A stretch of DNA of 59,314 nucleotides. Source: a virus. Within the stretch, counting starts at the first letter, position 1, and each line of letters begins with the position of its first letter. Under the pieces are notes generated by a model. It was given only the letters and a program-made list of their open reading frames with translations. It searched no databases and was not told the DNA's origin. This document shows positions 25,770-50,488 of the stretch, piece by piece. The stretch is taken from IMG/VR virus record IMGVR_UViG_3300036768_000707, positions 1 through 59,314 of that record. The stretch is one strand, 5' to 3'. The translations under genes and the position numbers were made by a program.

Positions 25770-25823
25770 TGCGTGCGACCTCCAAGCGCCAGGAAATCAT
25801 TGCATCATCAACTGTCGCGCGCG

Positions 25824-27027: not shown

Positions 27028-27033
27028 CAGTCG

Positions 27034-27537: not shown

Positions 27538-27804
27538 TCAGTCCCAGCCCCGGCACCCGCAGTAGTACGAGTCCGTGGCCGCATCCGGGCGGTGCTCGAA
27601 GTACGGCGCGCGCGGGTCGCTTGTCCGCTCCTTCTTGCAGTACGGGCACCGCATGAGCCGCCCCTCGAGGTCAGGGCCTGGGACGACGATGTAGGCGTCG
27701 GGCGTGAGGCCAGCGTGAATCGCGCACGCCGGGCTGCCGTCCTCGCGGACGGCGTTGGCGACGTGGCCGCACGCCATCATCGTGTTCGTGTTCGTGTTCG
27801 TCAT
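27538..27804 (-). CDS. Small zinc-binding protein
   Basis: This 88-residue protein has a Thr/Asn-rich start (MTNTNTNTMM), then ACGH and ACAIH groups, a CPYCKK knuckle and a CGC near the end: enough Cys/His for two zinc sites. The first part resembles small phage proteins of the CGH-x-CxxH type. It is coupled by ATGA to the preceding gene. Gene-free sequence of about 150 nt follows (27382-27537), in which I find no clear promoter. Confidence 0.65.
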   Translation of the reverse strand: MTNTNTNTMMACGHVANAVREDGSPACAIHAGLTPDAYIVVPGPDLEGRLMRCPYCKKERTSDPRAPYFEHRPDAATDSYYCGCRGWD

Positions 27805-28010
27805 GTGACTGCCTCCTTCTGGTCTTCGCCCCGTGACTGGTCGTACATGTCGATGAGAATCCGCGTCAGAGCGATGATCGTGCCCGTCAGCTCATACCGG
27901 TCGCGCGGCACGTCGTCAAGAAGCTCGTCGCGCAAGGCGAGCAGTTGATCCCGGACGGGCAGCATCCGCAGCTCGTCCGGGACGTAGCCTTGATACCAAC
28001 CGAGGCCCAT
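27801..28010 (-). CDS. Small helical hypothetical protein
   Basis: This 69-residue protein begins MGLGWYQGYVPDELRMLPVR and continues as two helices (LLALRDELLDDV, IIALTRILIDMY). ATG 28010 follows GGGAGGAG. It is coupled to the next gene by a 4-nt overlap. Function unknown. Confidence 0.6.
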   Translation of the reverse strand: MGLGWYQGYVPDELRMLPVRDQLLALRDELLDDVPRDRYELTGTIIALTRILIDMYDQSRGEDQKEAVT

Positions 28011-34252: not shown

Positions 34253-35239
34253 TCAGCTCCCAATGACCTTAGCACGCATTGTCAGCGCCATAAACTCTGC
34301 GCGCAACGACTGGTTAGATCTGAACTCACCAGACATGGACGACGTCACCGTCTCCGAACCGAACGCGCGCGGGCCTCGGATGATCATGCACGTGTGCACA
34401 GCGGACATGACGACAGCGACATCTGGACACTCGGAGGTTTCGCCGACTGCCTGAGCGACGCGCCTGTTGATGCGCGCGCAGAGGTCTTCTTGCATCGAGA
34501 GAGATGACGCCTCCTGCACGACAATGCGTGGGATCTTCGACAGACCCAGCACCTCCCCTTTGGCGAGATAGCCGACATGCACTGTGCCGATGTAGGGCAG
34601 CAGGTGATGTGCACACATCGAGAACACAGGGATGTCACGGACGACGATGAGGTCCGAGGTGTCACACGCAAACCGCGTCTCGCGGATCGGCGCTTCTCGG
34701 CATGTGCGCCACTCGTCGTAGAACGCGAGCACACGCCTCGGCGTCTCGATAAGATCCGGATGTGCTGGATCTCCCCCAGCATACTCGATGAGTCTGCGGA
34801 CAGCATCTTCGGGGGAAGAGTCGAAAGGCTGCTCCCACGGAAACTCGATCCATACATCCGACGCCGAACGCGGCGAGAACGCATACATGAGGTCGAACGA
34901 TGATAACACTTCTGAGCGATGACACAGGGCGAGGACGCCGGTTGGTGTCAGGCCGTATGACGCGATCCTGTCGAGCGCCCTCCGCACCGTCTCCCCTGAC
35001 ACTACGATGTCGTCAACGACCCAGATCGGGCCTCGCGTCTTCTCCGTCACCTCATCGAGAGGCACGACGTCGACCGAGAGTCTCGACGGGCGCACAGAAG
35101 CGAGCGCGAGGGCGGCAGCAACGCCCCCTCTCGGAATGCCGACGAGTGTGCGCGGCAGGTCTTTCACCTCGCATGTCGCGCGCAGCGTATCCCAGATCTC
35201 ACGGCAAAGATCCTGGATGTCGCTCATCGTCAGCTTCAT
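34253..35239 (-). CDS. folE: Phosphoribosyltransferase - GTP cyclohydrolase I fusion
   Basis: The 328-residue protein joins two enzymes. Residues 1-125 are a PRTase domain with the PRPP loop (IWVVDDIVVSGETVRRALDR). Residues 140-325 are GTP cyclohydrolase I: IPVFSMCAHHLLPYIG (zinc Cys and His, substrate pocket), LGLSKIPRIVVQ and SAVHTCMIIRG (second zinc Cys). GTP cyclohydrolase I makes dihydroneopterin triphosphate, the first precursor of preQ0. The start is ATG 35239, coupled by ATGA to the small zinc gene upstream; a longer start 36 codons before is unlikely. Confidence 0.9.
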   Translation of the reverse strand: MKLTMSDIQDLCREIWDTLRATCEVKDLPRTLVGIPRGGVAAALALASVRPSRLSVDVVPLDEVTEKTRGPIWVVDDIVVSGETVRRALDRIASYGLTPTGVLALCHRSEVLSSFDLMYAFSPRSASDVWIEFPWEQPFDSSPEDAVRRLIEYAGGDPAHPDLIETPRRVLAFYDEWRTCREAPIRETRFACDTSDLIVVRDIPVFSMCAHHLLPYIGTVHVGYLAKGEVLGLSKIPRIVVQEASSLSMQEDLCARINRRVAQAVGETSECPDVAVVMSAVHTCMIIRGPRAFGSETVTSSMSGEFRSNQSLRAEFMALTMRAKVIGS

Positions 35240-35430
35240 CGCGCCAGCTCCTCGCTCGCGGGCGCTTGCGCTGCAGATCCGGAGTGCGAGTGGCGAAGGA
35301 AGCACTCGGGGCAGTACGTGACGTCGCTCATCTCGCTGCACCAGCACGTATGCGCATCCTCCAGAAGCAGCAGCTCTTCACACACCGAACACTTCGCCCG
35401 CCAGCCTTCGCTCGTTGCATAGACCTTCAT
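35236..35430 (-). CDS. Small zinc-ribbon protein
   Basis: This 64-residue protein begins MKVYATSEGWRAKCSVCEEL (a CX2C knuckle), followed by a CWC near residue 28 and CPEC near 38. ATG 35430 follows GGAGGTGAC and the stop overlaps the folE start as ATGA. Strict coupling suggests a helper of the Que pathway. The stretch 35431-35612 holds its leader; no gene or clear promoter was seen. Confidence 0.65.
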   Translation of the reverse strand: MKVYATSEGWRAKCSVCEELLLLEDAHTCWCSEMSDVTYCPECFLRHSHSGSAAQAPASEELAR

Positions 35431-35612
35431 GTCACCTCCAGCTGCTCTAGAAACTACCTGTCCTACCGCCCGCAAGCGCCCTTCCCGAGCGGAAAAGTGT
35501 CGAGGGCGGGGAAAGACATAGGGGAGAGGGAAAAGCTGGCGAAAAGCCCGCTTGTGCGGCGTCTGCCGCCATCTTACGTATGCGCCCGCGTGCCAGAATG
35601 CATGAGTCCATG

Positions 35613-36350
35613 TCAGACGCCCATCCGATGGCCATACGCGAGCGTGTGAAGCTGAGGGAGTACGGCGACGTCGAGCTGTCTTGCGCGCACGAACTCGACG
35701 AGCCGGACGTAGCGGTCGAGCAGTGTCTCGCGCGTGTCATCCAGCCGTGTCAGGCAGGAGAAGCAGATGTCGAGTTCGAGGTCCGGCTGGTTGCCGTACA
35801 CGACGTACAAGCCCTCCGCGAAGTCTCTGTCCGCGCGCGAGTCGGGGTCAACAACGATCTTCAGCCCGACCGGCACGGACGTACGCGTGCACGCCTCGAA
35901 GTACCGCTCGAGCGTCTGCCGGCGCCTCGGCGTCCAAGGGGAGCCCGCCGACGGGGGCTTCGGCGAGAGCGTGATGTAGTCGCAGAGCAGGACCCAGGAG
36001 CGGTATACGGTCGCTTGCGTCTCGACCGTGACCGCGTGCCCGCGTGACCGTAGCTCTAAGACGAGCTCCGAGAGGTCGTGCAGCAGCGGATTGCCGCCGC
36101 TCAGCGTAACCCAGCGCACGTATGCGAGTTGCGCATGCTCTCGCAGAATCTCCTCCGTCGTCAGGTTCCGCCACTCGCTCCTGTAGCGAGGGTCAACGGA
36201 GGTCAGCGTGTCACACCACCTGCACCAGCCGCCTTCCCCTGCGCCGTCGCAGAAGCCGAACCGGATGAACGTCGTCTGCTGGCCGATGAGCTTGCCCTCT
36301 CCAGCGACGACTGGGCCATACAACTCCGAGATGGGGAAGCGTCCGTTCAT
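35613..36350 (-). CDS. queE: 7-carboxy-7-deazaguanine synthase (QueE)
   Basis: The 245-residue radical-SAM enzyme has the N-terminal FPISELYGPVVAGEGKLIGQ. The cluster-binding Cys lie in FGFCDGAGEGGWCRWC. The GG motif is VTLSGGNPLLH, and VTVETQATVYRSW and ITLSPKPPSAG complete the core. It converts 6-carboxytetrahydropterin to 7-carboxy-7-deazaguanine. The Cys spacing is CX8CX2C, between the short (CX3CX2C) and long (CX14CX2C) forms of the family. Start at ATG 36350, overlapping the queD stop by 4 nt. Confidence 0.9.
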   Translation of the reverse strand: MNGRFPISELYGPVVAGEGKLIGQQTTFIRFGFCDGAGEGGWCRWCDTLTSVDPRYRSEWRNLTTEEILREHAQLAYVRWVTLSGGNPLLHDLSELVLELRSRGHAVTVETQATVYRSWVLLCDYITLSPKPPSAGSPWTPRRRQTLERYFEACTRTSVPVGLKIVVDPDSRADRDFAEGLYVVYGNQPDLELDICFSCLTRLDDTRETLLDRYVRLVEFVRARQLDVAVLPQLHTLAYGHRMGV

Positions 36351-36757
36351 CGTGCGAACTCGGCCCAGCACTTCGCCGTCTCGTACACGCGCACACGCGA
36401 CACAGGCAGGCGCGCGTGCTCGCACGCCTGGAACAGGAAGCGAGCGAGGCGCTCAGCTGTCGGCACACGCGCGTCGCTCACGTCGTCCTCCGTGCCAGAC
36501 GTCCGTACGAGCTGCTCCAGCGTCTCGTTGAGGTCGAAGTGGTCGAGGTACTGCTCGAGCAGGGGCTTGACCACGCGGTCGATATGCGCGAAGTCGAGCA
36601 CCATGCCCGTCTGCGGCCCCGACGCCTGGAGCTCGTCCTGCATGAGCTCGATGTCCGCTCGGTAAGAGTGGCCATGCGGCCTTCGGCACTTACCGTCATG
36701 CTCTGGCAGGTGGTGCGCTGCCTCGAACGTGTACTGCTTGCAGATCCGGTACGGCAT
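36347..36757 (-). CDS. queD: 6-carboxytetrahydropterin synthase (QueD)
   Basis: The 136-residue protein has the family zinc motif (FEAAHHL with CRRPHGHSYRADIEL) and MVLDFAHIDRVV. LDHFDLNE carries the catalytic Asp/His region, and a late CEHARLP to YETAKCWAEF covers the substrate-binding Glu. It turns dihydroneopterin triphosphate into 6-carboxytetrahydropterin. ATG 36757 follows GAGGAG; the 36-codon longer frame is not supported. It is coupled to queE. The gap upstream is long and AT-rich. Confidence 0.92.
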   Translation of the reverse strand: MPYRICKQYTFEAAHHLPEHDGKCRRPHGHSYRADIELMQDELQASGPQTGMVLDFAHIDRVVKPLLEQYLDHFDLNETLEQLVRTSGTEDDVSDARVPTAERLARFLFQACEHARLPVSRVRVYETAKCWAEFAR

Positions 36758-36884
36758 ACGCTGTCTCCTCTTCGCTTCACTCGCCAGGCTGCTGGCCGGG
36801 CTGCTGCTGGCCGGGCCAGCTCCGTATTCTTTCTTTCTCCTTCTCCTGACGACCTCCTTCCTCAAGCAAGGCGCTTTGCTGGTT

Positions 36885-37186
36885 CAGCGCGCGCGCGAAG
36901 CGCGCGCTGAGCTTGTGTGGAGTTGTGATGGTCTTTTAGGAGGACAAACCCCTTATCAAGACCTTGATCGCTGATCATCCCCCTAGGGCTCATACCCCCT
37001 ATATATACTTCAAGTACCTTATTCCAATGTTCCAAAGTTCCACATTACATTCATATTAGTAGTAATTAGTGTGACCTTTTGGTAATAGTAGTAGCAGTTG
37101 TGACAGTAGTAGTAAATAGAAGTAATGGCGGCTGTGGACTTTTGGACCTTTCTGGGCACTATCTCTCGAGAAAGCCCTCTTTCGAG
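36885..37186. other. AT-rich intergenic region with hairpins (candidate replication origin)
   Basis: About 500 nt without a gene (36758-37258). It holds a perfect 10-bp hairpin (36885-36909, CAGCGCGCGC with GCGCGCGCTG). An AT-rich stretch follows (about 36960-37125) that stands out in a GC-rich genome and contains TATATATAC. Repeated TAGTAGTAA-like words occur, and a second hairpin near 37163-37186 (TCTCGA...CTTTCGAGA) lies after the primase gene. Nearness to the primase-helicase gene suggests an origin. It must also hold the promoter for queD. Confidence 0.5.
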
Positions 37187-37258
37187 ACCCGGCCAGGGGA
37201 CGGTCGCTTGGGGTCTGAGCGCCGCTGGCGCGGCCAGATGTAGGCGAGTGCGGAGGGC

Positions 37259-40120
37259 TCATGCTACCACTCCGGCCTGTCCAGCCTGTCCCTGTCCGTC
37301 CTGCTGACCATGCTCGTCCGGCGCATACACGAGCGTCAACGGCACCCAGACGCCGTTGACCTGAGGGACAGCGCCCGAAGAGGTTAGCGGGCGGGCTTTG
37401 ACGCGCACCTTCGCTTCCCTCTCGCCTCCGTACTTCATCGCCTCGCCGACGAAGCTCCTCCAGGAGAAGCCGACCTCCTCGCCGTTCGCGCGCAGATGGC
37501 GTTTGAACCACTCGTACGTCGTCTCGCGTGTCAGGAACACGCACTGCTGCTCCTCCTGCATTGGGCCGAACGGCCTCAGCCCCCAGTACGCAACCACCTC
37601 CGTCTTCGGCCCCGTTGGCCCCTGAGGTATGTTCTGCCTGTCAGGCGCCGGGCCGTCGATCGGGATGATCGCCGCCGCCCCGCGCGTGATCCCCTGTGCG
37701 ATCGCGTTCATCAGCTGGTGGAAGCTATCGGACTCCACGACCTCGCGCGCTAGCTCCTCAGCAACCGTCTTGAGCGACGAGAACGCTTCGAGCTGCCACC
37801 TCCGGATCTGCAGCGCAGCTGTGTCGCCGAACACTTCGGACACGAACTCATGCACGATGTCAGCAGTCGTCATGAGGTTGGCGATCGTCGCTGGAAACCG
37901 CATGTGCATCGCCGCCATGTCGGACGCACGCAACTTCTCCGTCCAGCTCGTGCGGAGGTGCTCAACCTTGGTCTTGTCGTGGATCTCGTCCTTCCCCGCA
38001 AGCCAGCTCAGATAGGCACCACCGAACAGCTGGAGCTTGCCCTCGTTCACCATCTGCTGCACGCGCGAGAGTGCGTCAGGGGAGATCTCCCCTCGGTCGA
38101 CATGCAGCACGAGCGTTCGCGCGGTCGCCGATGACTCTTTCTCCCAGACGTCTTCTCCCGTCGAGATGATCATGCCGCGCGGCATTGCAGGATCTCGCAC
38201 CTCTTGCTCCGTGTTCATCCGGAGCCGCGTCGTGCCATCGGCGTACGACTGGACGAAGCGGATGATCGAGCTTTTCTTGTCGGCGAATGACGTCTTGTAG
38301 TCGTCGATGAGCACAGGCAGGTCTTTGAGCACGTGCATAATCTTGCCGAGAGCGTTAGTCGTCGAGGTCCACGAAGCGGGAGCGGACGCTTTCTCCCCGA
38401 ACGTGCCGAACAGGGAGATCGCGCAGAGCGCGAACGACGTCTTCAACGCACCTGTCTGACCATGGATATGCACGAGCGGTGGGTTGATATGCATGCCGCA
38501 TGACGCGAGCGGAGCGGACAGCACCTGCAGCACCACGGGCACAGTGATGCGCAGTGCGCCGCACTCGATGAGAGCGCAGAATGCGTCCCATGCCGCCTGA
38601 TGCTCAGCATCCGTCACGGGCGGACGCACACCCTGGCCATACGGCTGAAGGTTCTCGCGCAAGATCGTCTGTGTCTCATCTAGCTGATCACGATCGATCC
38701 GGATCGACACATCGATGCCATGCGCCGAGATGCCGCCCGCCGCCCCGGGCATCAAGAACACGCGTTCGAGCCCATGATCCATCCACCCCGTCTGTGCAGG
38801 AACTCGGCGGATCGCCGTTGACGTGGAAAATTGCTGCATCGCTGCGAGCAGATGCTTGCTCTTGTTCGCCATGACGACGTACTCGGAAGAGCAGTTCCGG
38901 TGGATCGCTGTCTCAATGCGATGCTGAGCGAGGTCGCGTTCGCGGAGCAGGAACTCGGTCGACCGACCATTGCCGAGCGTGCACCGGACGAGCCATGACC
39001 GCTTCAGCTCTGTGCCATCATCGATCTGGTTATCAGCGATGATCTCCGGCTTGAAGTTGCAGATGATGTCGTAGGGCGAAAGCTCCCTGTTCTTCGACGG
39101 CCGGATGTACGTCACGCCGAGCTGCTCGTCCCAGATGTAGAGCTGCGGAACCGTTGGCTGCGGGCTTGCATGTGCGTGAACGTGTTGCGCGCCTTCGTCC
39201 GGCAACAGCTTCGATGCGATCCGCCAGTACTCGACATCGTGCCCGCGGTAGCGGTGACCAAACGCCGTGATATCCGCCTGCTTGACGATCCCCGCGACCT
39301 GCGCGCGCGTCAGCGGATACTGCGTCTCAGCGGCTGCTGCAACAAGGTCTGACCCGATCTTGTACAGCTTGCCAGACTTGTCATGCTCCTCCCTCAGGTC
39401 GAGCTGCCCCGACAGGACCTGTCGGACGTACGCTAACCGGCGGGAGAAGCGCAGTTCCTCAGGGACGCGCAAAGGGACGACTTCCTCCTCTTCCTGCGGC
39501 TGAGGGCTCGCTGACGAGCGCACAGAAGCAACTGTGACGTTGATGTAGCTCAGCAGTGTAGCGACATACTGCTCAGGGTCAGCTGTCGTCTCCATCTGCA
39601 GGTCATACGACGTCCTCTTGAGCCACGTGTACTGGCGCACGAGATGCCGCGAGGGAGGGACTACGACATACTGGCCATCTCCCCGGACGCCACCGAGCTT
39701 CTTGCCGTCAACCGTCACGACATCGAACGGCGGGTGAGGGACTGTCGACCGGAACCAGATATGACAGCCCCGCCCCGACCGCGTGATCGCCGTCTCATCA
39801 GCGAGATTGAGCGTCGCATCGCACAACGCGGCTGCTGTGTCTGCGTCATCAACATCGAAGGCGTAGACTCTACCTGAGATCTCACCGAGAGCGATGCCGA
39901 TATTGAGATTCTCCTCCGCCGCCCAGCTCAAGATTGTTGCTGGATCCGTTGTCGCAGAAAGTACTCCATGCGGAGCGTGTTTCGGATGTGGGTGCTTCCC
40001 CGGAGATTTGCACTGTGGTCGTCCACACTCACATCCTGCATCTGTCACGCCGTAACAGGGGAGTACAGCAAATCCTTGGGCGGCGTATGCGAGCGCTGCG
40101 TCGATGACGTTATGGTCCAT
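37259..40120 (-). CDS. PrimPol (AEP) - helicase fusion replication protein
   Basis: The 953-residue protein starts with an archaeo-eukaryotic primase/polymerase domain (about 1-185). It has LPCYGV, a Cys/His cluster (CECGRPQCKSPGKHPHPKH), VYAFDVDDAD (metal site), SGRGCHIWF and GDGQYVVVPPS. After a linker comes a DUF927-like ATPase/helicase (about 460-760) with VHIHGQTGALKTSFAL as Walker A, LPVLIDDYKTS as Walker B, and STGEDVW. The C-terminal 150 residues are of unknown fold. It would prime and unwind at the replication fork. It lies just before the AT-rich region and after the VRR-nuclease gene. Confidence 0.88.
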   Translation of the reverse strand: MDHNVIDAALAYAAQGFAVLPCYGVTDAGCECGRPQCKSPGKHPHPKHAPHGVLSATTDPATILSWAAEENLNIGIALGEISGRVYAFDVDDADTAAALCDATLNLADETAITRSGRGCHIWFRSTVPHPPFDVVTVDGKKLGGVRGDGQYVVVPPSRHLVRQYTWLKRTSYDLQMETTADPEQYVATLLSYINVTVASVRSSASPQPQEEEEVVPLRVPEELRFSRRLAYVRQVLSGQLDLREEHDKSGKLYKIGSDLVAAAAETQYPLTRAQVAGIVKQADITAFGHRYRGHDVEYWRIASKLLPDEGAQHVHAHASPQPTVPQLYIWDEQLGVTYIRPSKNRELSPYDIICNFKPEIIADNQIDDGTELKRSWLVRCTLGNGRSTEFLLRERDLAQHRIETAIHRNCSSEYVVMANKSKHLLAAMQQFSTSTAIRRVPAQTGWMDHGLERVFLMPGAAGGISAHGIDVSIRIDRDQLDETQTILRENLQPYGQGVRPPVTDAEHQAAWDAFCALIECGALRITVPVVLQVLSAPLASCGMHINPPLVHIHGQTGALKTSFALCAISLFGTFGEKASAPASWTSTTNALGKIMHVLKDLPVLIDDYKTSFADKKSSIIRFVQSYADGTTRLRMNTEQEVRDPAMPRGMIISTGEDVWEKESSATARTLVLHVDRGEISPDALSRVQQMVNEGKLQLFGGAYLSWLAGKDEIHDKTKVEHLRTSWTEKLRASDMAAMHMRFPATIANLMTTADIVHEFVSEVFGDTAALQIRRWQLEAFSSLKTVAEELAREVVESDSFHQLMNAIAQGITRGAAAIIPIDGPAPDRQNIPQGPTGPKTEVVAYWGLRPFGPMQEEQQCVFLTRETTYEWFKRHLRANGEEVGFSWRSFVGEAMKYGGEREAKVRVKARPLTSSGAVPQVNGVWVPLTLVYAPDEHGQQDGQGQAGQAGVVA

Positions 40121-40385
40121 GTAACGTCTCCTTCAACGCTGTCACAGCTGCTGCAAGAGCAATAGTCTGCAGTTCGGTCAGATCATGCAGCTCCCATTTT
40201 CCATCTCTGACTGTGACGTACGGTTCACACCCGAGTTGGATGATGACATGCTCAAACCAGTCTTGACCGATCGCTTTTCCATTTCTGATGAGTAGTTCGT
40301 AGGCTTTCTCTAGTCTTTCAGGTCTGACGTCTGACCAGGACGGGTCGCGCGTCTCAGGACTCGTTGGTTCATGCAGTAGTGTCAT
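40110..40385 (-). CDS. Small helical hypothetical protein
   Basis: The 91-residue protein begins MTLLHEPTSPETRDPSWSDV after AAGGGAAG and continues as helices (LEKAYELLIRNGKAIG, TIALAAAVTALKETL). It overlaps both the VRR-nuclease stop (16 nt) and the primase start (11 nt). Such tight packing suggests an accessory replication factor. No family was recognised; a longer start at 40415 is less likely. Confidence 0.6.
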   Translation of the reverse strand: MTLLHEPTSPETRDPSWSDVRPERLEKAYELLIRNGKAIGQDWFEHVIIQLGCEPYVTVRDGKWELHDLTELQTIALAAAVTALKETLHGP

Positions 40386-40749
40386 TCCACTTCCCTTCGG
40401 AATCGACAAAGCCATGCCCTACGGAACAGGCAGTTCCAGTCAGTGGTGCGAAGCACGCGCGACATACATCTGGAAACGCAGCGAGCATCTCTTCGACTTG
40501 ATCTACAGAATCCATGACACCCGCATACGCGCCTGCCGCGCGCAGTTCTCGCTGGACGCGCGCCTGAATTGCTGTGCTACGTTTTCCACGTGCTTTCACC
40601 TCAATCCAGACTGCGCGTCCAGCGATCACGCACGCGACGTCCGGAAGACCCCTGCGCTGCATCGGACCTCCATGCAGTTTTTCGGCGAAGTGGCCATGCG
40701 CGCGCAGCCGCGCAATGATAGCGCGTTCGATGCGTTTCTCCGGACCCAC
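40369..40749 (-). CDS. VRR-NUC domain nuclease
   Basis: The 126-residue protein is a full VRR-NUC domain. It has an N-terminal basic helix (EKRIERAIIARLRAHGHFAE), GLPDVACVI with the metal-binding Asp and AVWIEVKARG with the E-x-K pair. A conserved helix (QARVQRELRAAGAYAGV) follows. A short Cys-containing tail (CRACFAPL, CSVG) may bind zinc. Family members act as structure-specific nucleases, for example on Holliday junctions. The start is a weak GTG at 40749. It belongs to the recombination operon from 43.3 kb. Confidence 0.85.
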   Translation of the reverse strand: MGPEKRIERAIIARLRAHGHFAEKLHGGPMQRRGLPDVACVIAGRAVWIEVKARGKRSTAIQARVQRELRAAGAYAGVMDSVDQVEEMLAAFPDVCRACFAPLTGTACSVGHGFVDSEGKWNDTTA

Positions 40750-40758
40750 GTTCTTTCT

Positions 40759-41349
40759 CTAGTCTTCGAAGAGCTCCTCCAGCCCTGCCGCGATCTCCGC
40801 CTCGGTCTGTTCGACGGAGGCAGCAGGCGCGGACTCGACCTTCGGCGCTTCCTGTTTGACCGTCTGCGCGTCCGTCTTGGTCACGTTCTCGATCTCCGGA
40901 AGTGCAGCCTGCTTCTGCGGGCGCAAGAAGGCGACGACCGTCGAGACGGTGCGTTCCTTGAACCGACCGTCTTCCGATGCGGGGCGCACATCGTCCGCGA
41001 CCTCGAGCAACAACTTCTTCCCGATGAGCTGGTCGAAGTCGATCGACACGCGCCCGGTGAGCGGTTTGAACCCGAGAGCAACGAGCATCGCGTGCAGGCG
41101 CTGCTTCGGGAACAGCGAGTCGTTCGGGTCGCGCGGCATCGTGAACCGCTCGACGAGCCTCTTGCCTGCGTACTCGCCTGCCACGATCGAGAAGGTGAAG
41201 GTGAACATCTGCTTGCCGGAGCGCGCGTTGCCGTCTTCGTATCTCTCGACCTTCGCGAGATACGTGCCCGGCGGCACGTAGTCCGCGCGCCCCGCCCCGG
41301 CTTCGACCGGGGGAGCGCCGGTGAAGTCGATGGTGACTGGATGAGCCAT
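40759..41349 (-). CDS. Single-strand DNA-binding protein (DUF669-like)
   Basis: The 196-residue protein has a beta-barrel core (about 1-130) with ADYVPPGTYLAKVERYEDGN, the aromatic strand MFTFTFSIVAGEYAGKRLVE and LGFKPLTG. It ends with a flexible Ala/Glu-rich tail and an acidic tip (AAGLEELFED). The acidic tip is typical for SSB proteins that recruit partners. DUF669-family proteins replace SSB in many phages. It lies between the Sak4-like ATPase and VRR nuclease. Confidence 0.8.
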   Translation of the reverse strand: MAHPVTIDFTGAPPVEAGAGRADYVPPGTYLAKVERYEDGNARSGKQMFTFTFSIVAGEYAGKRLVERFTMPRDPNDSLFPKQRLHAMLVALGFKPLTGRVSIDFDQLIGKKLLLEVADDVRPASEDGRFKERTVSTVVAFLRPQKQAALPEIENVTKTDAQTVKQEAPKVESAPAASVEQTEAEIAAGLEELFED

Positions 41350-41380
41350 TCTGTGATTACCTCCTGTGTGATGGTTGTTA

Positions 41381-42220
41381 CTACTCTTCCGCTAGCACAG
41401 TGAATGCGGTTTCGTCGTACGCCTTCGGCGGCGTCGATGACGCCCCGAGGAGGTACGCGAAGATCTGCCCCAGGTCTGGATCGTCGATGATAGGCGGCAC
41501 AGGACGCGAGGGCAGGGCGCGCGCCTTCGTCACGTATTCCGGATGCGTCCCGACGCGCAGAAGACGCTTCGGCTGATCTTGACCAATCACCTCCTCTGTG
41601 TACAACCTGCCTACTAAGTACATCGGTGGAATCAGCGACGAGAGCGCCGCAGGGGAAACATCTGGTTGTGTGATGCGATCGCCGCCTTCTACATCTCCGC
41701 GCCTCCGTTCTTGTGCCGTGAAGATCACGTGCATCCGCAGCAGCCGGAACTGGAACACGATCTCTTCCATCAAGTTCCCAACTTTGCCCCAGTCCTGTTG
41801 CGTCAGGACCGCGGGGTCATGATCGAGAGGCCGCTCTTTGACCGTCTTCCGTTTGGCGAGATTCTGCGCGCCAGTGAGCGAATCGAGAGCGACCCACTTG
41901 TACTCGCGCTTATTCGGCCTTAGAATGGTCGCGAACAGCTCTTCGAACTGCTCCCAGCGAGTAATTTGGATGATGTCGATCTTGTCCTCCCATTCCGAGA
42001 GGACGTGTGTGCCTCCCTCGATCTGAGGAATATCGACGACTAACCCCTTTCCAGGCATCGTGTGCAGCAGCGTTGTCTTCCCGACACCTCCACGGCCGTA
42101 GATGCAGGCCGCGATCCTCGTCAAGTTTCCAGACGGCTTTCTGATGCGTGATTCAAGCGATCCAGATTCTTCAGGTGAAGAGGGCGGCGAAGTCTTCTTC
42201 GTCATCTGTCCTGCGTTCAT
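41381..42220 (-). CDS. Sak4-like RecA-fold ATPase (recombinase)
   Basis: The 279-residue protein has a Walker A (IYGRGGVGKTTLL, about residue 42), WVALDSLTG as Walker B, and VIFTAQERR after the central helices. The C-terminus is short (YDETAFTVLAEE). It matches the phage Sak4/AAA_24 family, small RecA-core recombinases that act with an SSB in strand annealing. ATG 42220 is chosen; it overlaps the exonuclease end by 50 nt. The next gene encodes the SSB-like protein. Confidence 0.82.
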   Translation of the reverse strand: MNAGQMTKKTSPPSSPEESGSLESRIRKPSGNLTRIAACIYGRGGVGKTTLLHTMPGKGLVVDIPQIEGGTHVLSEWEDKIDIIQITRWEQFEELFATILRPNKREYKWVALDSLTGAQNLAKRKTVKERPLDHDPAVLTQQDWGKVGNLMEEIVFQFRLLRMHVIFTAQERRRGDVEGGDRITQPDVSPAALSSLIPPMYLVGRLYTEEVIGQDQPKRLLRVGTHPEYVTKARALPSRPVPPIIDDPDLGQIFAYLLGASSTPPKAYDETAFTVLAEE

Positions 42221-43256: not shown

Positions 43257-43365
43257 GACGTATTCAGTTCATCACCTCGTGTCCGCCTCGTCGTATCTAT
43301 ACGATGCTAGCGGTGAGGCGATGCCTTCGGTACATGCGCGCGTCCCGCGCAAACTGTCTGCGAGC

Positions 43366-43395
43366 AGGATAACACAGAACGAGCCATCGTGTCAA
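43366..43395 (-). promoter_or_regulatory. Sigma70-type promoter without operator
   Basis: TTGACA (43395-43390), an 18-nt spacer and TATCCT (43371-43366) on the minus strand, just after the polymerase stop. Unlike the accessory promoters the spacer has no ACGTCA-TGACGT palindrome. It drives the exonuclease-Sak4-SSB-VRR-primase genes. Confidence 0.65.
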
Positions 43396-43398
43396 CCC

Positions 43399-45918
43399 TC
43401 ACGCCCAGCGTCGAGCCCTCTTGACCTCCGCCTCAAGCGGCACAGGGATGATCACGTGAAGCCTCTCCGTGTTCGGATGCGTCATCTCGTACGAGACGAG
43501 CTCCTCGACTTCTTCGGCGACTTCATCGGCAACTTCGATGAGGATCGAGTCATGCACCATCCCGAACGGCCTGACGACACCTCGCTCATAGTAGCCGCGG
43601 CGCGAACACTCAGCGTCGATCTGCGCGAGTGCAAGTTGCGTCAGGTCAGACGCTGTCGCCTGGACAGGCGTGTTGATCGCTTTTCGTAGCTTTCCATGAG
43701 CGTCTTCATTCTCGAAATCGATGCGCCGTCTTCGTCCGAAGACGGTCTCCGTCCAACCGCGCTCAACAATGTTCCAGTGAGCTTCGTGCCAGGCAATGAA
43801 GTCTGGATACAGCTCAGCCCACCCTGCACGCATCATGCTGGCCTCGTCAAACGTCAGATCAATTCCATAATCTGCGCGTGCGACATTGATCAGCACATGT
43901 TCTGTGCCCCCATACAAGAGCGCGAAGTTGGCAGGTTTGGCCCTGTACCGTTCGTCAGGTGTCACGGAGAGCCATTCTCCGAGAGAGGTCTGACCTTTGT
44001 GTGGAATCCAAGCTTCTAGCCTTGTTCTGTACTGCGCGATCGTCTCCCCGGTCCTCCCCGCCTTGATCCAACCCGCAGTTGCTGTGTGCGGATCGATCCC
44101 AGCATTCAGGAAGTGGATCAGCGTCCTCTCGTTCGCAAGCCAGGCAGCAATCCGTAGTTCGATCTGCGAGTAGTCCGCTGCGAGAATCTGGAATCCAGGT
44201 TCTGCGCAGACCATCGCGCGCGCATACGCCTCATGCGGATACTGCTGTAATGTCCCTCCCGATTCAGATTCTGCCGACGTCCTGCCCGTCGTTGCCCCTG
44301 TCGGTTTGAAGATCGTATGCAACCGCGCATCCCCCTGTTCTTCGAGCATGTGCAGCCAGGGGCGGAGATACGCATTCTCCAGCTTCTCGATACGCCGAAG
44401 CAGAATGAGTGGCGGCATGACAGCATGTTCTTTCTCTCGCGGGATGAGGTCGTCAAGCCGCACTGATGGCCTGTGCGTCTTTGGTGTGCGCGGTAGTGTG
44501 ATGCCGTGTTGTTCGAGTAGAGGTCCGAGTACATTATCGTTGAACACGACCTCGAACCGTTCTTCGACCCCAAGCATCTGACCGATCTTCTTCGCGAGCT
44601 TCATCATAGAGACGCGCGCCTTGTATTCCGCTCGCCTGAGCATCTGCATGTCGATCGGCGCTCCGAAGAGGGATGCGCGCGCGAGTGCATAGGTCGAAGG
44701 GAGCAGCACAGCGTTGTAGAACTCGAACGCGCGCTCTCGCCCCTCTTCTCTGATCTTCCGCAGCTCTGCCTCTTCGAGCAGTACTGTCGAGATGCAGTCT
44801 TTAGCGTTGTACTCGAGAAGCGTCTGCCAGCCTTCGCGCGTGTCAGGGCGACGGCCAACGACAGACAAGACTGCGCTCTCCTTCTTCCACCCAGGCGCGA
44901 CATCAGTTAGCAGTGACGTGAGCGACTCGAGAGAGTGAGAAGATTCGATGTTCAGAAGAGAGGCGAGCACCATCGTGTCCCCCGCGAGTTGTGGTGCATA
45001 TCCGTACGCGAGGAGCCAGATCAGGTCGTAGGTAGCATTGTGGTAGATCGACGGGACGGATGCGATGAGCTCTTTGAGTGTCTTGACCCGGAGAGAAGAC
45101 TCATCGGGCGTGCGCGGGATTGCAACCGAGACACCGAGTACTGTCCCAGTGTTGAGGCGGCCAGCAATGCCTACCGATGTCAGGTCAGGGAGCACACCCC
45201 CACGCCTCGACCACGGCCACTTTCTACCCCCCTCGACGTTTGTTTCGACATCGACAGCCACGCGTGCGCACTCACTCCTGAGCGTCGCGAGTGCGTCACG
45301 CACCTCCGCAGTGAAGTCGTATCCTGTGACGACCTGACCTGCCGTCCCGCCTCCGAGAAAGCGCTGCGCAAACCGAAGGTCTTCGACGATCTGACCGAGC
45401 ACCATCGCACGCCTGTGCGGCGCATGCAATGCAGCCGCAGGATGGTACGTCACGATCACAGGCACCGCGGACCTGTATTCTGGCTTGAGCTGTAGCACTT
45501 TCCCACGTTCAGCTGAGATCTTCGTCCGGCCTGTAAGTGCTGCAAGAGCTGCACCACCGACGGCGACGATGACTTCTGGTTGTACAGCAGCGATCGCGCG
45601 GATCGTGTATGCGAGACAGGCAGCTTGCTCCGCGGGTGTCGGAGTGCGGTTCAAGGGCGGACGGCAGCGAACCGTGTTATCGATGAACACGTCATCGGAG
45701 GAGATGTTCGCTTGCGCGAGACAGCTTTCGAGCAACATGCCTGCCTGCCCGACGAAAGGCAGCCCCTGCTCTTCTTCGTTCGCCCCAGGCGCTTCTCCGA
45801 AGAGCATGATCCGGGCAGGGACCGCACCTCTCCCCGGGACACAGACGCGCTTGCCTTCGAGCTTCGGCGCGCGCGAGAGTGCGCATCTCGTACAGTCGGC
45901 GTCGTAGAAGTTCAGCAT
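43399..45918 (-). CDS. Uracil-DNA glycosylase (family 4-like) - DNA polymerase A fusion
   Basis: The 839-residue protein starts with a UDG domain (about 1-195): CTRCALS (Fe-S Cys), MLFGEAPGANEEEQGLPFVG (uracil pocket and catalytic region) and VTYHPAAAL. A 3'-5' exonuclease-like domain follows (VAVDVETNVEGG, then NATYDLIWLLAYG, and YNAKDCIST). The family A polymerase is complete: LAADYSQIELRIAAW (motif A), KPANFALLYGG (motif B) and GMVHDSILIEV (motif C). This is the replicative polymerase. The UDG part would excise or sense uracil ahead of synthesis. Confidence 0.9.
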   Translation of the reverse strand: MLNFYDADCTRCALSRAPKLEGKRVCVPGRGAVPARIMLFGEAPGANEEEQGLPFVGQAGMLLESCLAQANISSDDVFIDNTVRCRPPLNRTPTPAEQAACLAYTIRAIAAVQPEVIVAVGGAALAALTGRTKISAERGKVLQLKPEYRSAVPVIVTYHPAAALHAPHRRAMVLGQIVEDLRFAQRFLGGGTAGQVVTGYDFTAEVRDALATLRSECARVAVDVETNVEGGRKWPWSRRGGVLPDLTSVGIAGRLNTGTVLGVSVAIPRTPDESSLRVKTLKELIASVPSIYHNATYDLIWLLAYGYAPQLAGDTMVLASLLNIESSHSLESLTSLLTDVAPGWKKESAVLSVVGRRPDTREGWQTLLEYNAKDCISTVLLEEAELRKIREEGRERAFEFYNAVLLPSTYALARASLFGAPIDMQMLRRAEYKARVSMMKLAKKIGQMLGVEERFEVVFNDNVLGPLLEQHGITLPRTPKTHRPSVRLDDLIPREKEHAVMPPLILLRRIEKLENAYLRPWLHMLEEQGDARLHTIFKPTGATTGRTSAESESGGTLQQYPHEAYARAMVCAEPGFQILAADYSQIELRIAAWLANERTLIHFLNAGIDPHTATAGWIKAGRTGETIAQYRTRLEAWIPHKGQTSLGEWLSVTPDERYRAKPANFALLYGGTEHVLINVARADYGIDLTFDEASMMRAGWAELYPDFIAWHEAHWNIVERGWTETVFGRRRRIDFENEDAHGKLRKAINTPVQATASDLTQLALAQIDAECSRRGYYERGVVRPFGMVHDSILIEVADEVAEEVEELVSYEMTHPNTERLHVIIPVPLEAEVKRARRWA

Positions 45919-45958
45919 CTAGAACACATGCTCTGTGCCGTACATCTTCTGTCTCCGC

Positions 45959-46657
45959 TCATCCATGCTTCTGTCTCCCGTGCAGTCTCCGGTATGCGCT
46001 GAGGACATCGAGTTGAGCGCGTAAGAATGGTTCCCATTCCGACAGGGGGAGCGAAAAGAACTGCGTCCAGGGCGCACGATGCGTCTTGATCCACTCCCAC
46101 GGTTTCTCACCATCGTATGTCTCAATGATGCCGTTATTCTCTAATGCGACCCAGCGACGGAAACATGACATGCATCGTCCGCACCGGATGAGAGAAGAAT
46201 CGTAGCAGGAGAGTGTCGCACGCAGAGCGTCCGGATCGCCACCGCACTCGAGATAGGCCCGTACGGCTTCCGTCTTGGTCATCTTGTGCAGCGGCGAATA
46301 GACGCGGACGGGCTTCTGCGCAGTATATGAGAGCAGAGAAGACATGCTCTTGAAGAAGCGCTTGTGCTTGTCGCGCGAGTACTCGCCTGCGACTGCGCAG
46401 AGCAGCACCTCATCCGCATCCGTCATCGCTTGCGCCTGAGTAACAAGCAACACATTCCGTTGTGGTACGAACCCATCTTCACGTTCGATGGTTGTGAGTT
46501 GCGGCCCAGCGACGACACGCACATCTGGCCCGAGATGCGCGATCTCTTTGTCCGCATACCGCGTACGGAGGTCGATATGCAGCAGGATCGCGTCTGGGAT
46601 CAACTTCGAAGCGATGAACGAATCAAGACCTCCCGAGTACAGAATGACGCGGTTCAT
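45959..46657 (-). CDS. queC: 7-cyano-7-deazaguanine synthase (QueC)
   Basis: The 232-residue ATP-dependent enzyme has the PP-loop VILYSGGLDSFIAS at its start, FVPQRNVLLVTQAQAM in the middle and the four zinc Cys at the end (SCYDSSLIRCGRCMSCF, CX7CX2CX2C). It converts 7-carboxy-7-deazaguanine to preQ0. It lacks the fused glutamine amidotransferase found in phages that make dG+, so the likely product is preQ0. ATG 46657 is set by a TGATG overlap and AAGGAGG. It lies next to the polymerase gene. Confidence 0.92.
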   Translation of the reverse strand: MNRVILYSGGLDSFIASKLIPDAILLHIDLRTRYADKEIAHLGPDVRVVAGPQLTTIEREDGFVPQRNVLLVTQAQAMTDADEVLLCAVAGEYSRDKHKRFFKSMSSLLSYTAQKPVRVYSPLHKMTKTEAVRAYLECGGDPDALRATLSCYDSSLIRCGRCMSCFRRWVALENNGIIETYDGEKPWEWIKTHRAPWTQFFSLPLSEWEPFLRAQLDVLSAYRRLHGRQKHG

Positions 46658-46977
46658 CACTGATCCTCCTTCTCAATCCTGCGCACGAAAGGCCATAGCA
46701 CGGCGTACGGTTCGTGCGTGATCGCATCACAGATCCAGTGCACAAGGTATGGCCATGCACGCCCGCGCGTGAGCATAAAGAGAGAAAAAGCGACGAGTGG
46801 AGAATGGAGCATGCGCCCGAGACGGACGCGGGGGTCGTCTTCATGTACTCGAGTCCTCTCGAGTATGAACAGGGGATTCGCAGCATCTGGCGCAAGCGTC
46901 CAGAGCAGGTCTGAGATATGGACACCACGCCGTCGCGCGAGTGCAAAGGTGACGCCGAGATGAGTGAGTGGGGCCAT
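46657..46977 (-). CDS. Membrane-associated YdjM-like protein (truncated)
   Basis: The 106-residue protein has THLGVTFALA, HISDLLWTLAPDAANPL and HSPLVAFSLF, then CDAITHE. The His/Asp pattern and Leu-rich membrane helices resemble the N-terminal part of YdjM-type metal-dependent membrane hydrolases, but it is about half their length. ATG 46977 follows AAGGAG. It overlaps queC by a TGATG junction. The role is unknown; the coupling to queC may be by chance. Confidence 0.55.
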   Translation of the reverse strand: MAPLTHLGVTFALARRRGVHISDLLWTLAPDAANPLFILERTRVHEDDPRVRLGRMLHSPLVAFSLFMLTRGRAWPYLVHWICDAITHEPYAVLWPFVRRIEKEDQ

Positions 46978-46983
46978 CAATCA

Positions 46984-48414
46984 TCACTCCTTCGTACACA
47001 CAGGGGGCTGGACGTTCATTCTTCTGCGTGCAGCATCAAGTAGAGACTTTGCTACATCTAGTTTGTCCCTGAGAGTCTCATACAGGTCTTGATCCACCGA
47101 GTTCTCGATCACGAGGTGGTAGATCGGTCGCGTATGCGTATCTCCGTACTGGTACAGACGGCTCTTCGCTTGCTCGTAGTGCACGAGTGACGCATCGAGG
47201 CTGTAGAAGATCGCTGCCTCCGCACATGAGAGGTCGATCGCCTCCGAGGTCGTAGCGATCTGACCAACGAGAATGATCGGCGCGTGCGCCTGTTGAAATC
47301 GGCTCAGGCGTGCATCACGATCCTTGCGGCTGCGACCATCCAGGACGATCGTCTCAGCAAACTTCGCCGAAAGCTCCGCGACGCGATCAACATCAGGCGT
47401 GAAGCGACAGAAGATCACGATCTTCCGCGCCTCTCCTCCTCCTGCGTACAGGTCTTCAAGCATCTCCTGTAGTGCGTCGAGTTTCTCACGTGACGTGTAC
47501 ACGATCGACCCATCGACATCTCGGACGAAGCCTGACGTGAGCTGCTGAAGCCTCAGCATCTTCGTGAGCACGATGCGAGAAAGTACTGTCGCTGACCGCT
47601 GTGCGCCAGATGCATCGATTCCGTCGATATCGAGGACAGCTTGTCTGTTGAACTCGTTGTAGCTCTTTCTGTCTTTCAGGTCCAGAAGGATCACGTTCGG
47701 CGGCTCTTCAGGCGGCAGCTGATCGTCTACTTCCCTGCGCGTACAGCGGAATGTCGCCTCGTGAAGACGCTGTTCGATGATGTCGGTATTACGGAAGCCC
47801 TTGATCTCATATCCGCCGTAGCCGCCTTTGATGATGAAAGCTGACTCAAAATCAGACCATCGCGTACCAAAGACGGTGCGGTCGATGAAAAGAAACTCTG
47901 AGTAAATTCCCGGAATGCCCCCAGGTAAAGGCGTGCCCGAAAGCATGAGCCGGTAAGGCGCACGTGCCCCCAGCACGTGCGCGAACCGAGATTGCTGAGA
48001 TCTGCGGTTTGCGAGGCGATGCCCTTCATCGGCAATGACGAGTTCTGGTTGCCATTCGAGGATCGCGTTTCTGAGTGCCGACCTCCAGTAGCTTTCGTAA
48101 CCAACCGCGATGAGCGTGACACCCGGATCTGAGAAGTGCGCGCGTAACCGTTCTGCACGCTGCGCGACACTGCCCTTCGTGCAGTCGACGAACTGAGCAG
48201 ATGGCCATAGTTCCGCAAGCTCATCTCTCCATACCTTTGCTGCATAGAGCGGGAGTATGACGAGAATCTTGCGCACGGAAAAGTACTTCGCAAGGTAGAG
48301 CGAGATGTACGTCTTACCGAGACGCATATCGAGAAATAAGCCGCCCTTGAGCCCGCGTCTGATCATGCGTGCGACAGCCTGCCTCTGGTACGGGCGGAGT
48401 CTCTTCGTCGTCAT
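46984..48414 (-). CDS. SNF2-type DEAD/DEAH helicase
   Basis: The 476-residue protein has all core motifs. These are the Q-like RPYQRQAVARM, Walker A LFLDMRLGKTYIS, VIADEGHRLANRRSQQ (motif II), LMLSGTPL (motif III), KIVIFCRFTPDVDRVAEL (motif IV region), LVGQIATTSEAIDLS (V) and YEQAKSRLYQYGD (VI). Such short SNF2-family proteins are common in phage replication modules and may clear proteins from DNA or help start replication. ATG overlaps the clamp stop (ATGA). Confidence 0.88.
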   Translation of the reverse strand: MTTKRLRPYQRQAVARMIRRGLKGGLFLDMRLGKTYISLYLAKYFSVRKILVILPLYAAKVWRDELAELWPSAQFVDCTKGSVAQRAERLRAHFSDPGVTLIAVGYESYWRSALRNAILEWQPELVIADEGHRLANRRSQQSRFAHVLGARAPYRLMLSGTPLPGGIPGIYSEFLFIDRTVFGTRWSDFESAFIIKGGYGGYEIKGFRNTDIIEQRLHEATFRCTRREVDDQLPPEEPPNVILLDLKDRKSYNEFNRQAVLDIDGIDASGAQRSATVLSRIVLTKMLRLQQLTSGFVRDVDGSIVYTSREKLDALQEMLEDLYAGGGEARKIVIFCRFTPDVDRVAELSAKFAETIVLDGRSRKDRDARLSRFQQAHAPIILVGQIATTSEAIDLSCAEAAIFYSLDASLVHYEQAKSRLYQYGDTHTRPIYHLVIENSVDQDLYETLRDKLDVAKSLLDAARRRMNVQPPVCTKE

Positions 48415-49475
48415 ACCGCGCGGTACGTCAACGGCATCCAGTACTTGTAGGGAGTGTCTGGTGCGTCGATGAGCACGATCGACCGCGGGTCAGTGTAGTG
48501 GATCGTGAGCTCACTAGCGAGCTGTTTCGCCACGCCCAGGAACTCAGCATCAAAGTTCAGTTCGATATCAGGGACAGCCTGTGTGTCCATCGTCGTCACG
48601 AACGTACCCACCTCTTTGTCCGCGACGATGAATCCCGAAGTACCTTCGCGCACGCGGAACCGCACGACGCGGTTGGCGTCGAGAATGGCAGCTGCTCGCT
48701 CCGCTGCGGCAATGGCCGAAGCCGGGACTTTGACCGTGTACTTGAACGTGCGCGGCAACGTTCCGAGTCCCGGATACTGCCCAGACAACGCTGAAAGCAC
48801 GACGCGCGTGCGCGTGTCATGAAGCACGATGTGCGACGAATTGAACTGGATGCTAAACTCCGGATCCATCAGCGAGATCGCAGTGAGCAGATCAGCGACG
48901 GGAGCAGTGACGTGAGGCTTGTCTTCGTTCTTGGAAATTGTGGTCGGCACATACGGGACGATCGCGGCACGGCCGATACCATCTGTCGCCTGAAGCACGA
49001 GCTTCCCTTTGACGACCGAGATGTTGACGCCTGTCAGTACAGGACTGTGCATACGCTTCGCTGCGACCTGATCGAGAAACGCGATCAGCGGCCGGATGCC
49101 ATCTCGGGTGCAGCCAGCAGAACACGTTGGAGTGATGCTCTTCGCTTGATATCTCCGCGATTTCTGGATGTTGAACGCCATTGTAGACTTCGCCACCGCG
49201 AGAACAAGTTGCCCACGCGACAGCGTTAGCTTCGCCTCTTCTTCCTGATCGAAGATAGCGAGAGCTGACGTGAGCTTATCGCCTGCAACTGCGACTGGTT
49301 CTGTCAACCCAATCTTCGTTCCCGGGGCTACGGATTCTGCTGCGCAGTGCAGACCTTCGAATGAAACCGTGAGCTCTTTTCCGTCATCTTCTGAGAAGGT
49401 GAGTGTCTTCGACCCTGTATCGAGGGAAGCGAGACTCCAGAGAGAAACGAGTTGGGCGAGTTCTCGTACGTTCAC
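48411..49475 (-). CDS. dnaN: DNA polymerase sliding clamp (beta-clamp-like)
   Basis: The 354-residue protein has the three-domain pattern of bacterial beta clamps. HSPVLTGVNISVVKGKLVLQ followed by ATDGIGRA is the domain-2 signature; GQYPGLGTL and YTVKVPASAIAAAERAAAI open domain 3. The C-terminus is YKYWMPLTYRA, in the place of the usual IMPMR-L end that touches the partner pocket. It would raise processivity of the fusion polymerase. It is coupled to DpdA upstream and the SNF2 helicase downstream by ATGA overlaps. Confidence 0.85.
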   Translation of the reverse strand: MNVRELAQLVSLWSLASLDTGSKTLTFSEDDGKELTVSFEGLHCAAESVAPGTKIGLTEPVAVAGDKLTSALAIFDQEEEAKLTLSRGQLVLAVAKSTMAFNIQKSRRYQAKSITPTCSAGCTRDGIRPLIAFLDQVAAKRMHSPVLTGVNISVVKGKLVLQATDGIGRAAIVPYVPTTISKNEDKPHVTAPVADLLTAISLMDPEFSIQFNSSHIVLHDTRTRVVLSALSGQYPGLGTLPRTFKYTVKVPASAIAAAERAAAILDANRVVRFRVREGTSGFIVADKEVGTFVTTMDTQAVPDIELNFDAEFLGVAKQLASELTIHYTDPRSIVLIDAPDTPYKYWMPLTYRAV

Positions 49476-50488
49476 GATGTGCTCCAGTTCAGAGGAAGGG
49501 GAGAATGCGCTAGAATGGGTCGGTTCTGGTTTGCGAGCTCCTGCCTTTCAAGAAATACCTTGATCGCTACTTCGAACTTCGCTTGTTGTGAGCCTCCAGG
49601 TTCGAGAAGCACCTTTGGGTCATAGCCCCAACTTCTCACCTTTTCTTCGAAGAACCGAGACTTCGAGACCTCACGCGTAGACATTGGGACATCGCGCCTG
49701 TACATGAACTGGCCATACGCCCCAAACCGAACACAGTTGAGCCAAGTAGTCGAATCGAAGCTATCGAACGTCGTCTGTTCGAGGACGCTAGGAAGCGACG
49801 TACCAAGATAGTGAGAGTAGACGTGTGCCTGTCGCGCCTGATCAGCAAGATATCGTGATCTGCGCCGAAGCTTGATTGCATCCTGTCCCGGAATAGCGAC
49901 GTACTTGTAGTCGCGCAGCATCGCATTCCAGCGCGGATATGGCGGAGGATCAACTTCTGGATGCCATACGACGATGAGCCGATCTCCGACGATGCGCTTG
50001 ATCTGGTCGCGCGACCAGTCAGCTACCGCAACGCCTGGAATCCATTTGCCGTCGTCACGCACGATCCGGAACTTGTCGAGGTCCATCTCAACGACGAAGT
50101 CCCACGTGTCGAGATGTTCTTCTAGATAGCGAAGATAGCGTGCAATGTAGTCTTTCACAAGCTGGTACGGCAATGTTGGGTCCGCTTTGCGTTCAACAGC
50201 TTTCGCAGATGCAGCCTTCGGCTGTGACTTTGCTGACCGGTCGACAGCGCCATACTTCCGCATGAGAGTGTAAACACCCGAGTCGAGATAACGGTACTGT
50301 GGCCACTCATCTAAGATCGGCCTGATGCGCTTATCCCAACGAGATGAACGCGATATCTCCCAGAACGAACAGAGAAGAGCATCTGCCTGACAGGCGAGGA
50401 GAGCTCGTGCAGTAAGTTCGGACTGCGCGCCCGCGAAGACGATGAGCCTCTTCTCAGGAAACATCGTCTTCGGTCGTATCCTTGTCAT
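49472..50488 (-). CDS. dpdA: DpdA-like DNA-guanine transglycosylase
   Basis: The 338-residue protein has a TIM-barrel pattern like queuine/tRNA transglycosylases: RLIVFAGAQSELTARAL, YRYLDSGVYTLMRKYG, WDFVVEMDLDKF, RLIVVWHPEVD, YVAIPGQDAI, and an end WGYDPKVLLE. The Asp residues in LDSG and EMDLD are candidates for the catalytic nucleophile and general base. The order resembles phage DpdA proteins that swap guanine in DNA for preQ0. The complete Que set in the same genome supports this. It is coupled to the HTH gene and clamp. Confidence 0.75.
   Translation of the reverse strand: MTRIRPKTMFPEKRLIVFAGAQSELTARALLACQADALLCSFWEISRSSRWDKRIRPILDEWPQYRYLDSGVYTLMRKYGAVDRSAKSQPKAASAKAVERKADPTLPYQLVKDYIARYLRYLEEHLDTWDFVVEMDLDKFRIVRDDGKWIPGVAVADWSRDQIKRIVGDRLIVVWHPEVDPPPYPRWNAMLRDYKYVAIPGQDAIKLRRRSRYLADQARQAHVYSHYLGTSLPSVLEQTTFDSFDSTTWLNCVRFGAYGQFMYRRDVPMSTREVSKSRFFEEKVRSWGYDPKVLLEPGGSQQAKFEVAIKVFLERQELANQNRPILAHSPLPLNWSTS

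Follow-up and report, generated by a model that had tools for sequence, protein, structure and literature searches.

The window analysed here is the whole of the virus record IMGVR_UViG_3300036768_000707 (IMG/VR), a linear stretch of 59,314 bp with 60.5% GC and nearly all of its genes on the minus strand, which belongs to a tailed phage with genes for terminase, portal, capsid, tape-measure, primase, clamp and DNA polymerase A. It encodes members of the five families FolE, QueD, QueE, QueC and DpdA (Table 1), and sequence, fold and gene context all lend strong support to a 7-deazaguanine pathway that feeds a DNA transglycosylase. DNA modification with 7-deazaguanine bases by such gene sets is already known (Hutinet 2019). 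The kind of system is thus familiar, and the parts worth following are its QueC, which belongs to a non-canonical subfamily tightly linked to DpdA, and a fusion of FolE with a phosphoribosyltransferase (PRTase)-like domain.

A sequence-only reading of this stretch had called folE, queD, queE and queC, and all four genes are borne out by family searches. That reading had also described the four enzymes as complete by their motifs, which does not hold for QueC, where YxQxHxxE is missing, as is the Tyr of YPDC. In QueD, Cys-x3-HGH and the downstream Asp-His and Glu align with solved QueD. QueE matches Bacillus subtilis QueE (5TGS) at 8e-31 over residues 26-270, its whole length; its cluster motif is CX8CX2C against CX3CX2C in B. 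subtilis QueE, the first two cysteines lying 8 residues apart and not 3. The FolE domain occupies residues 180-355 of the open reading frame (ORF) 34253-35347 and has the CxHH and later Cys ligands. The likely starts of QueD, QueE and the FolE fusion lie inside their longest frames. No member of the QueF, GATase_6, YhhQ (Vut_1) or ArcS (DUF5591) families turned up when the record was searched, and positive controls were detected.

Table 1. Genes of the 7-deazaguanine module and of its surroundings in the window
Feature	Coordinates	Strand	Family or fold evidence
PRTase-like domain-FolE (GTP cyclohydrolase I) fusion	34253..35239 (likely start 35239; longest frame to 35347)	-	PF01227 1.6e-47; PF00156 1.6e-5
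QueE, 7-carboxy-7-deazaguanine (CDG) synthase	35613..36350 (likely start 36350; longest frame to 36425)	-	TIGR03365 2.3e-47
QueD, 6-carboxytetrahydropterin (CPH4) synthase	36347..36757 (likely start 36757; longest frame to 36865)	-	PF01242 2.6e-30
Uracil-DNA glycosylase (UDG)-DNA polymerase A fusion, context gene between the que blocks	43399..45918	-	PF03167 2e-29; PF00476 4.5e-51
Non-canonical QueC (CDG-activating ATP enzyme), 233 aa	45959..46660	-	PF06508 2.3e-18; fold QueC 3BL5
Small YdjM-like ORF	46657..46980	-	PF04307 E 0.001, under curated cut-off
SNF2-type DNA helicase, context gene	46984..48414	-	phrog_62 8.5e-85
Sliding clamp (DnaN-like), context gene	48411..49475	-	phrog_947 3e-21; PF02767 2.8e-6
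DpdA, DNA guanine transglycosylase (DpdA1-type), 338 aa	49472..50488	-	phrog_887 9.5e-15; TGT fold

The transglycosylase assignment rests on several lines of evidence. The sole PHROG match of the window protein, phrog_887, is also the PHROG of the DpdA of phages 9g (2e-98) and CAjan, and the DpdA2 of nt-1 falls in another one. The Pfam families of tRNA-guanine transglycosylase (TGT) gave no match to it at E <= 1. Across 40 aligned homologues from viral contigs, D69, G71, H226 and D245 never vary, and 35 of them have H176. The invariant residues belong to two motifs, DSG(A/V)(F/Y) and S-x-D-S/T-T-W, taken here as the counterparts of the TGT aspartate motifs. H176 aligns with the His of the 9g sequence PCFHAG, a conserved His that is missing from DpdA2, and is presumably the 'His196' of the literature. 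An AlphaFold2 model of the protein (pLDDT 84.4, pTM 0.84) has the archaeosine TGT 1IQ8 as its best match in the Protein Data Bank (PDB; E 1e-5, probability 1.00, TM 0.54 on the query), the other matches being generic barrel enzymes; this comparison had been proposed beforehand as one that could overturn the call of a DpdA-like enzyme encoded with the clamp, and its outcome favours the call. The dpdA gene overlaps the clamp gene by 4 bp. Further subfamilies, DpdA3 and DpdA4, were reportedly distinguished by Cui et al. in 2023. On a human-gut phage contig (L015, 12638-14878), DpdA is apparently split by an intein in the active-site motif (DS...TTW), and a QueC of the variant kind described below adjoins it.

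The motifs of the QueC family are SGGxDS, YxQxHxxE, VPxRN, YPDC and C(x)8CxxCxxC, and the Y35A, R99A, Y131A and Y189A forms of Escherichia coli QueC are inactive in the synthesis of 7-cyano-7-deazaguanine (preQ0), while Y131F has partial activity left (2026 study, PMC13329287). The window QueC keeps SGGLDS, VPQRN, the Lys, Cys-Tyr, the base-reading Asp and all zinc cysteines, with a zinc site (C152 (x7) C160 xx C163 xx C166) that is one residue shorter than C(x)8C. It has L/T/Y/E for the Y/Q/H/E of YxQxHxxE and SRDK for YPDC, the Asp of YPDC being kept and the Tyr gone. In Cap9, the deazaguanine is stacked against the YPDC Tyr and read at N1/N2 by the Asp; QueC has both residues as well (PMC13279940). 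The QueC proteins of CAjan, nt-1, Sour and Dp-1 retain Tyr35 and the YPDC Tyr, and the Gat-QueC proteins of 9g, NP1 and MiCath retain both Tyr in the presence of a YPDN motif. An AlphaFold2 model (pLDDT 92.4) places the window QueC closest to QueC 3BL5, followed by QatC and Cap9.

As the sequence-only reading had stated, this QueC has no fused amidotransferase; it consists of the QueC domain only, and neither a glutamine amidotransferase (GAT) domain nor GATase_6 was found elsewhere in the window. Its derivation from a Gat-QueC by loss of the GAT domain was considered and rejected, both because Gat-QueC keeps Y35 and YPD(N) and because the window protein lies outside the clade of canonical QueC and Gat-QueC (ultrafast bootstrap, UFBoot, 91) in a tree rooted on the long branch of QatC, from which no direction is claimed. 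Membership of the QatC-like protein-modifying enzymes was likewise rejected. QatC shares the fold and also lacks canonical YPDC and YxQxHxxE, but it has about 400 aa, is extended at both termini and carries a Thr pair for Tyr/Asp, whereas the window QueC has 233 aa, keeps the base-reading Asp and RN, has no such extensions, neighbours DpdA instead of defence genes, and scores 24 against a cut-off of 280 in the NCBIfam QatC model.

The altered motifs are a property of a whole subfamily. Viral contigs scanned with DpdA as a single protein gave no hits, and an initial DpdA alignment proved too heterogeneous to serve as a query; a profile scan of 2.9 million viral contigs with a four-member QueC alignment (A2) yielded 56 relatives. 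None of the 41 dereplicated sequences, including that of the window, has a Tyr at the YPDC position, and SGG-DS, E39, R68, N69, D97, S151, C152, C160, C163 and C166 are invariant in all of them. Because the altered residues are common to the set while the others are invariant, the alignment indicates a subfamily under purifying selection, not decay. DpdA is encoded in the flanks at 53 of the 56 loci (two by weak match) and at 37 of the 40 dereplicated ones, together with FolE, QueE and QueD in 22-24, and in 41/43 records no PF06508 gene other than the variant scores above cut-off. Four out of 50,697 phage records carry it (at least 31% identity to a typical member) as a 'hypothetical' or unannotated protein, the sole isolate being Bacteroides phage BS162P1. 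The QueC proteins of BS162P1 and of the metagenomic A4 set lack the same residues as the window protein, keep the same invariant ones and have DpdA beside them; the window differs in that its dpdA is about 3 kb away, with the clamp and helicase genes in between, and in that its QueC is only about 30% identical to other members. The 2026 QueC family paper makes no mention of DpdA or Gat-QueC, and no description of the variant was found in the literature searched, outside of which Cui et al. 2023 lay; the subfamily is apparently undescribed so far. QueF matches in variant-QueC records were rejected as a sign of preQ1 synthesis, since most of them are FolE, which has the same T-fold; an independent QueF-like ORF, below threshold, was found in L039 only.

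Related enzymes were also encountered in other settings. A cluster in a bacterial metagenome-assembled genome (MAG; L080, 7977-15326) combines a variant QueC with a GNAT acetyltransferase, FolE2, QueD, QueE, a carbamoyltransferase, a PIG-L deacetylase and a glycosyltransferase; DpdA was not detected in it, and by its gene content it looks like a 7-deazaguanine natural-product pathway. A phage-like MAG contig (L083, 6680-7969) carries variant QueC, QueD, QueE and FolE, also with no DpdA detected, and directly upstream of QueC it encodes a 430-aa protein whose N-terminal part resembles deoxynucleoside kinases, possibly indicating another route of incorporation. In Microcystis phage Me-ZS1 (L108, 7291-8172) and in the viral contigs L005, L006 and L011, QueC has canonical substrate motifs and no zinc cysteines.

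The sequence-only reading was right about FolE but overlooked its N-terminal extension. Counted from the likely start, residues 1-140 make up a PRTase-like domain, whose family profile matches purine and xanthine-guanine PRTases best in the PDB (4.6e-20; E. coli xanthine-guanine PRTase about 2e-18), and profile comparison with this E. coli enzyme, Gpt, gives a probability of 98.9 with the WIEFPWE motif included. The features of a xanthine-guanine PRTase, i.e. the pyrophosphate loop, the phosphoribosyl pyrophosphate (PRPP) loop and the W-I-E-x-P-W motif, are all present, and the domain shares with Gpt the PRGG loop and the DD-x-x-x-x-G-x-T loop; unlike Gpt, it is joined to FolE and is shorter in most relatives. 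The architecture recurs in DpdA phages: the same fusion is found in NP1, L002-L008 and L068/L070/L073, and separate copies of the domain in L010, L011, L047 and L063, in a sample biased by the use of the fusion as the query that gave L002-L011. A weakly supported suggestion is that the domain most likely turns guanine released by DpdA into GMP and then GTP, the substrate of FolE, or else has become a sensor of PRPP or nucleotides.

The genes are arranged in two blocks, QueD-QueE-FolE and DpdA-clamp-helicase-YdjM-like-QueC-PolA, separated by primase, DUF669, AAA and Cas4-like genes, which agrees with the earlier description of two blocks flanking or mixed with replication genes. Overlaps of about 4 bp link dpdA with the clamp gene, the clamp gene with the helicase gene, the YdjM-like ORF with queC and queD with queE; these overlaps are consistent with co-expression with replication genes. 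The neighbourhood resembles that of Queuovirinae in its polymerase A, clamp, DpdA, que genes, helicase, Cas4-type nuclease and Sak4-like ATPase. This likeness is one of gene kinds and layout only and not of genome relatedness: the terminase search returned no Queuovirinae record among its matches, so the window is not placed in that group, and megablast of window positions 34-50 kb found no nucleotide match in phage records. Neither DpdA nor QueD was matched in the closest relatives by terminase (42-46% identity), whose records reach 58 kb, and the module is therefore probably a lineage-specific acquisition.

Among characterized systems, 'group 2' of Hutinet 2019, which makes dPreQ0 and includes Seuratvirus CAjan and Mycobacterium phage Rosebush, is the most similar in content, with FolE, QueD, QueE, a stand-alone QueC, DpdA of the identical PHROG next to the clamp region and no amidotransferase; for Rosebush the likeness is by group description, the sequence comparison having covered other phages. 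The window differs from this group in its QueC lacking the YPDC Tyr and YxQxHxxE, in the PRTase-like domain on FolE, in the two gene blocks, in that no preQ0 transporter was found and in having no nucleotide similarity. The 9g/NP1 type, with Gat-QueC and, in 9g, dG+, shares the DpdA family and the kinds of replication genes, and NP1 shares the PRTase-like-FolE fusion, whereas the window has no Gat domain and its QueC is not a Gat-QueC, which keeps Tyr35 and YPDN.

Taken as a whole, the locus is very probably best explained by a phage-made 7-deazaguanine base that DpdA swaps into phage DNA; its activity on DNA, the extent of replacement, the protective effect and the identity of the base are what we infer from the genes. 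In the host cell, FolE would convert GTP to dihydroneopterin triphosphate, QueD would produce CPH4 from it and QueE CDG, which the non-canonical QueC would activate with ATP. DpdA, encoded beside the clamp, would then exchange guanine for the 7-deazaguanine base in already made phage DNA by a TGT-type reaction, leading to partial replacement of deoxyguanosine (dG) and protection from nucleases. Several points weigh against this account. The record is incomplete, with genes cut at both ends, so that absences, including those of an amidotransferase and QueF, are provisional. By alignment, QueC is without residues that are essential in the E. coli enzyme (Tyr35, Tyr131). In the PRTase-like domain, the DDxxDxGxT loop has a Val at the position where 7 other aligned domains and E. 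coli Gpt have an Asp; we take this Asp to contact the purine N7, and the window domain may therefore be altered in substrate or inactive. Finally, with the closest terminase relatives lacking DpdA and QueD, nothing shows that the lineage needs the module.

The sequence-only reading had proposed dPreQ0 as the base. Its proposal of DNA modification with a 7-deazaguanine stands, but the choice of base is undecided, because it presupposes a canonical QueC. dPreQ0 is nevertheless the single likeliest base, with about an even chance of being the right one, though not established: the variant takes the place of the canonical QueC, DpdA lineages appear to swap QueC kinds, and the sole QueC of the pathway retains the ATP, zinc and base-reading residues. 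A possible but distinctly less likely outcome is that the subfamily makes no preQ0, stopping instead at 7-amido-7-deazaguanine (ADG) or coupling CDG to another amine, and that DpdA inserts dADG or an amide-type, possibly new base. The relatives Cap9 and probably QatC join CDG to protein N-termini, and the base-stacking Tyr and the Y/Q/H are lost in the entire subfamily. DNA of Campylobacter phage CP220 is reported to be fully dADG (PMC8306585) and its QueC has FPDC for YPDC, but this is a single case with a milder change, Tyr to Phe, and Y131F is partly active in E. coli. Two loci also point to an amide: in L063, a Gat-QueC-like YPDN protein lies next to the variant QueC, and in L039 (6475-9688), a YhhQ-type transporter has small QueF-like ORFs, a variant QueC and DpdA on its flanks, and QueD is missing from the record of 69 kb. 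On the other hand, the variant is usually the only QueC, as plain replacement predicts, and DpdA proteins that accompany a canonical QueC are intermingled in their tree with those that accompany the variant (mixed clades include L002 with L022 at UFBoot 99, and L005 lies within the clade of the window at 82-94), in which few canonical-QueC partners were sampled. A separate lineage of variant-QueC DpdAs, expected if a different base were taken, was not seen.

It is improbable that the QueC is non-functional and that the phage relies on host preQ0 or on missing genes. Catalytic residues are indeed lacking, and there are phages that have DpdA as their only such gene and need the host for the rest (PMC6884629), but the invariance of SGGxDS, RN, D, S-C and the other cysteines across the 41 sequences speaks for purifying selection, and queC, which overlaps the gene upstream of it, is preceded by a good Shine-Dalgarno sequence. 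Still less likely, although the early steps are common to queuosine synthesis and the fold is that of TGT, is a pathway serving tRNA (queuosine-type) or host metabolism with a TGT-like protein acting on tRNA, as the protein falls in the PHROG of 9g DpdA, matches no TGT Pfam family and is encoded with the clamp, no QueF was found, and 9g DpdA is unable to replace E. coli tgt (PMC6884629).

Several further features were noted in the window. The family A DNA polymerase has a uracil-DNA glycosylase domain as its N-terminus, and a gene for an N6/N4 DNA methylase (16864-17991, PF01555 1.3e-31) would give this phage another DNA modification besides the 7-deazaguanine one. A promoter-operator element, TTGACA-N6-CGTCANNTGACG, with a palindrome between -35 and -10-like hexamers, occurs at 10 sites on both strands between 14974 and 32230, against 0.94 expected by chance; these sites are probably the operator set of a phage regulator. 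The region 20000-28000 has few recognizable genes and contains many CGGCTCGCTC-type repeats (20945-21806) and a match to an IS110-type transposase fragment (21799-22686, PF02371 1.2e-6). An Rfam search of the window found nothing.

7-Deazaguanine DNA is a known anti-restriction strategy, and the published minimal recipe for it presumes a canonical QueC. The variant, almost always encoded beside DpdA and usually unannotated, implies either that QueC residues regarded as essential are dispensable or that a different base is made, and both outcomes would alter how bases are predicted from phage genomes. If no preQ0 is made, the variant would be a third functional branch of QueC beside preQ0 synthesis and protein deazaguanylation. 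Bacteroides phage BS162P1 is a cultured phage with the pair of variant QueC and DpdA. The recurrent PRTase-like-FolE fusion, in turn, suggests that some DpdA phages recycle the guanine that DpdA expels.

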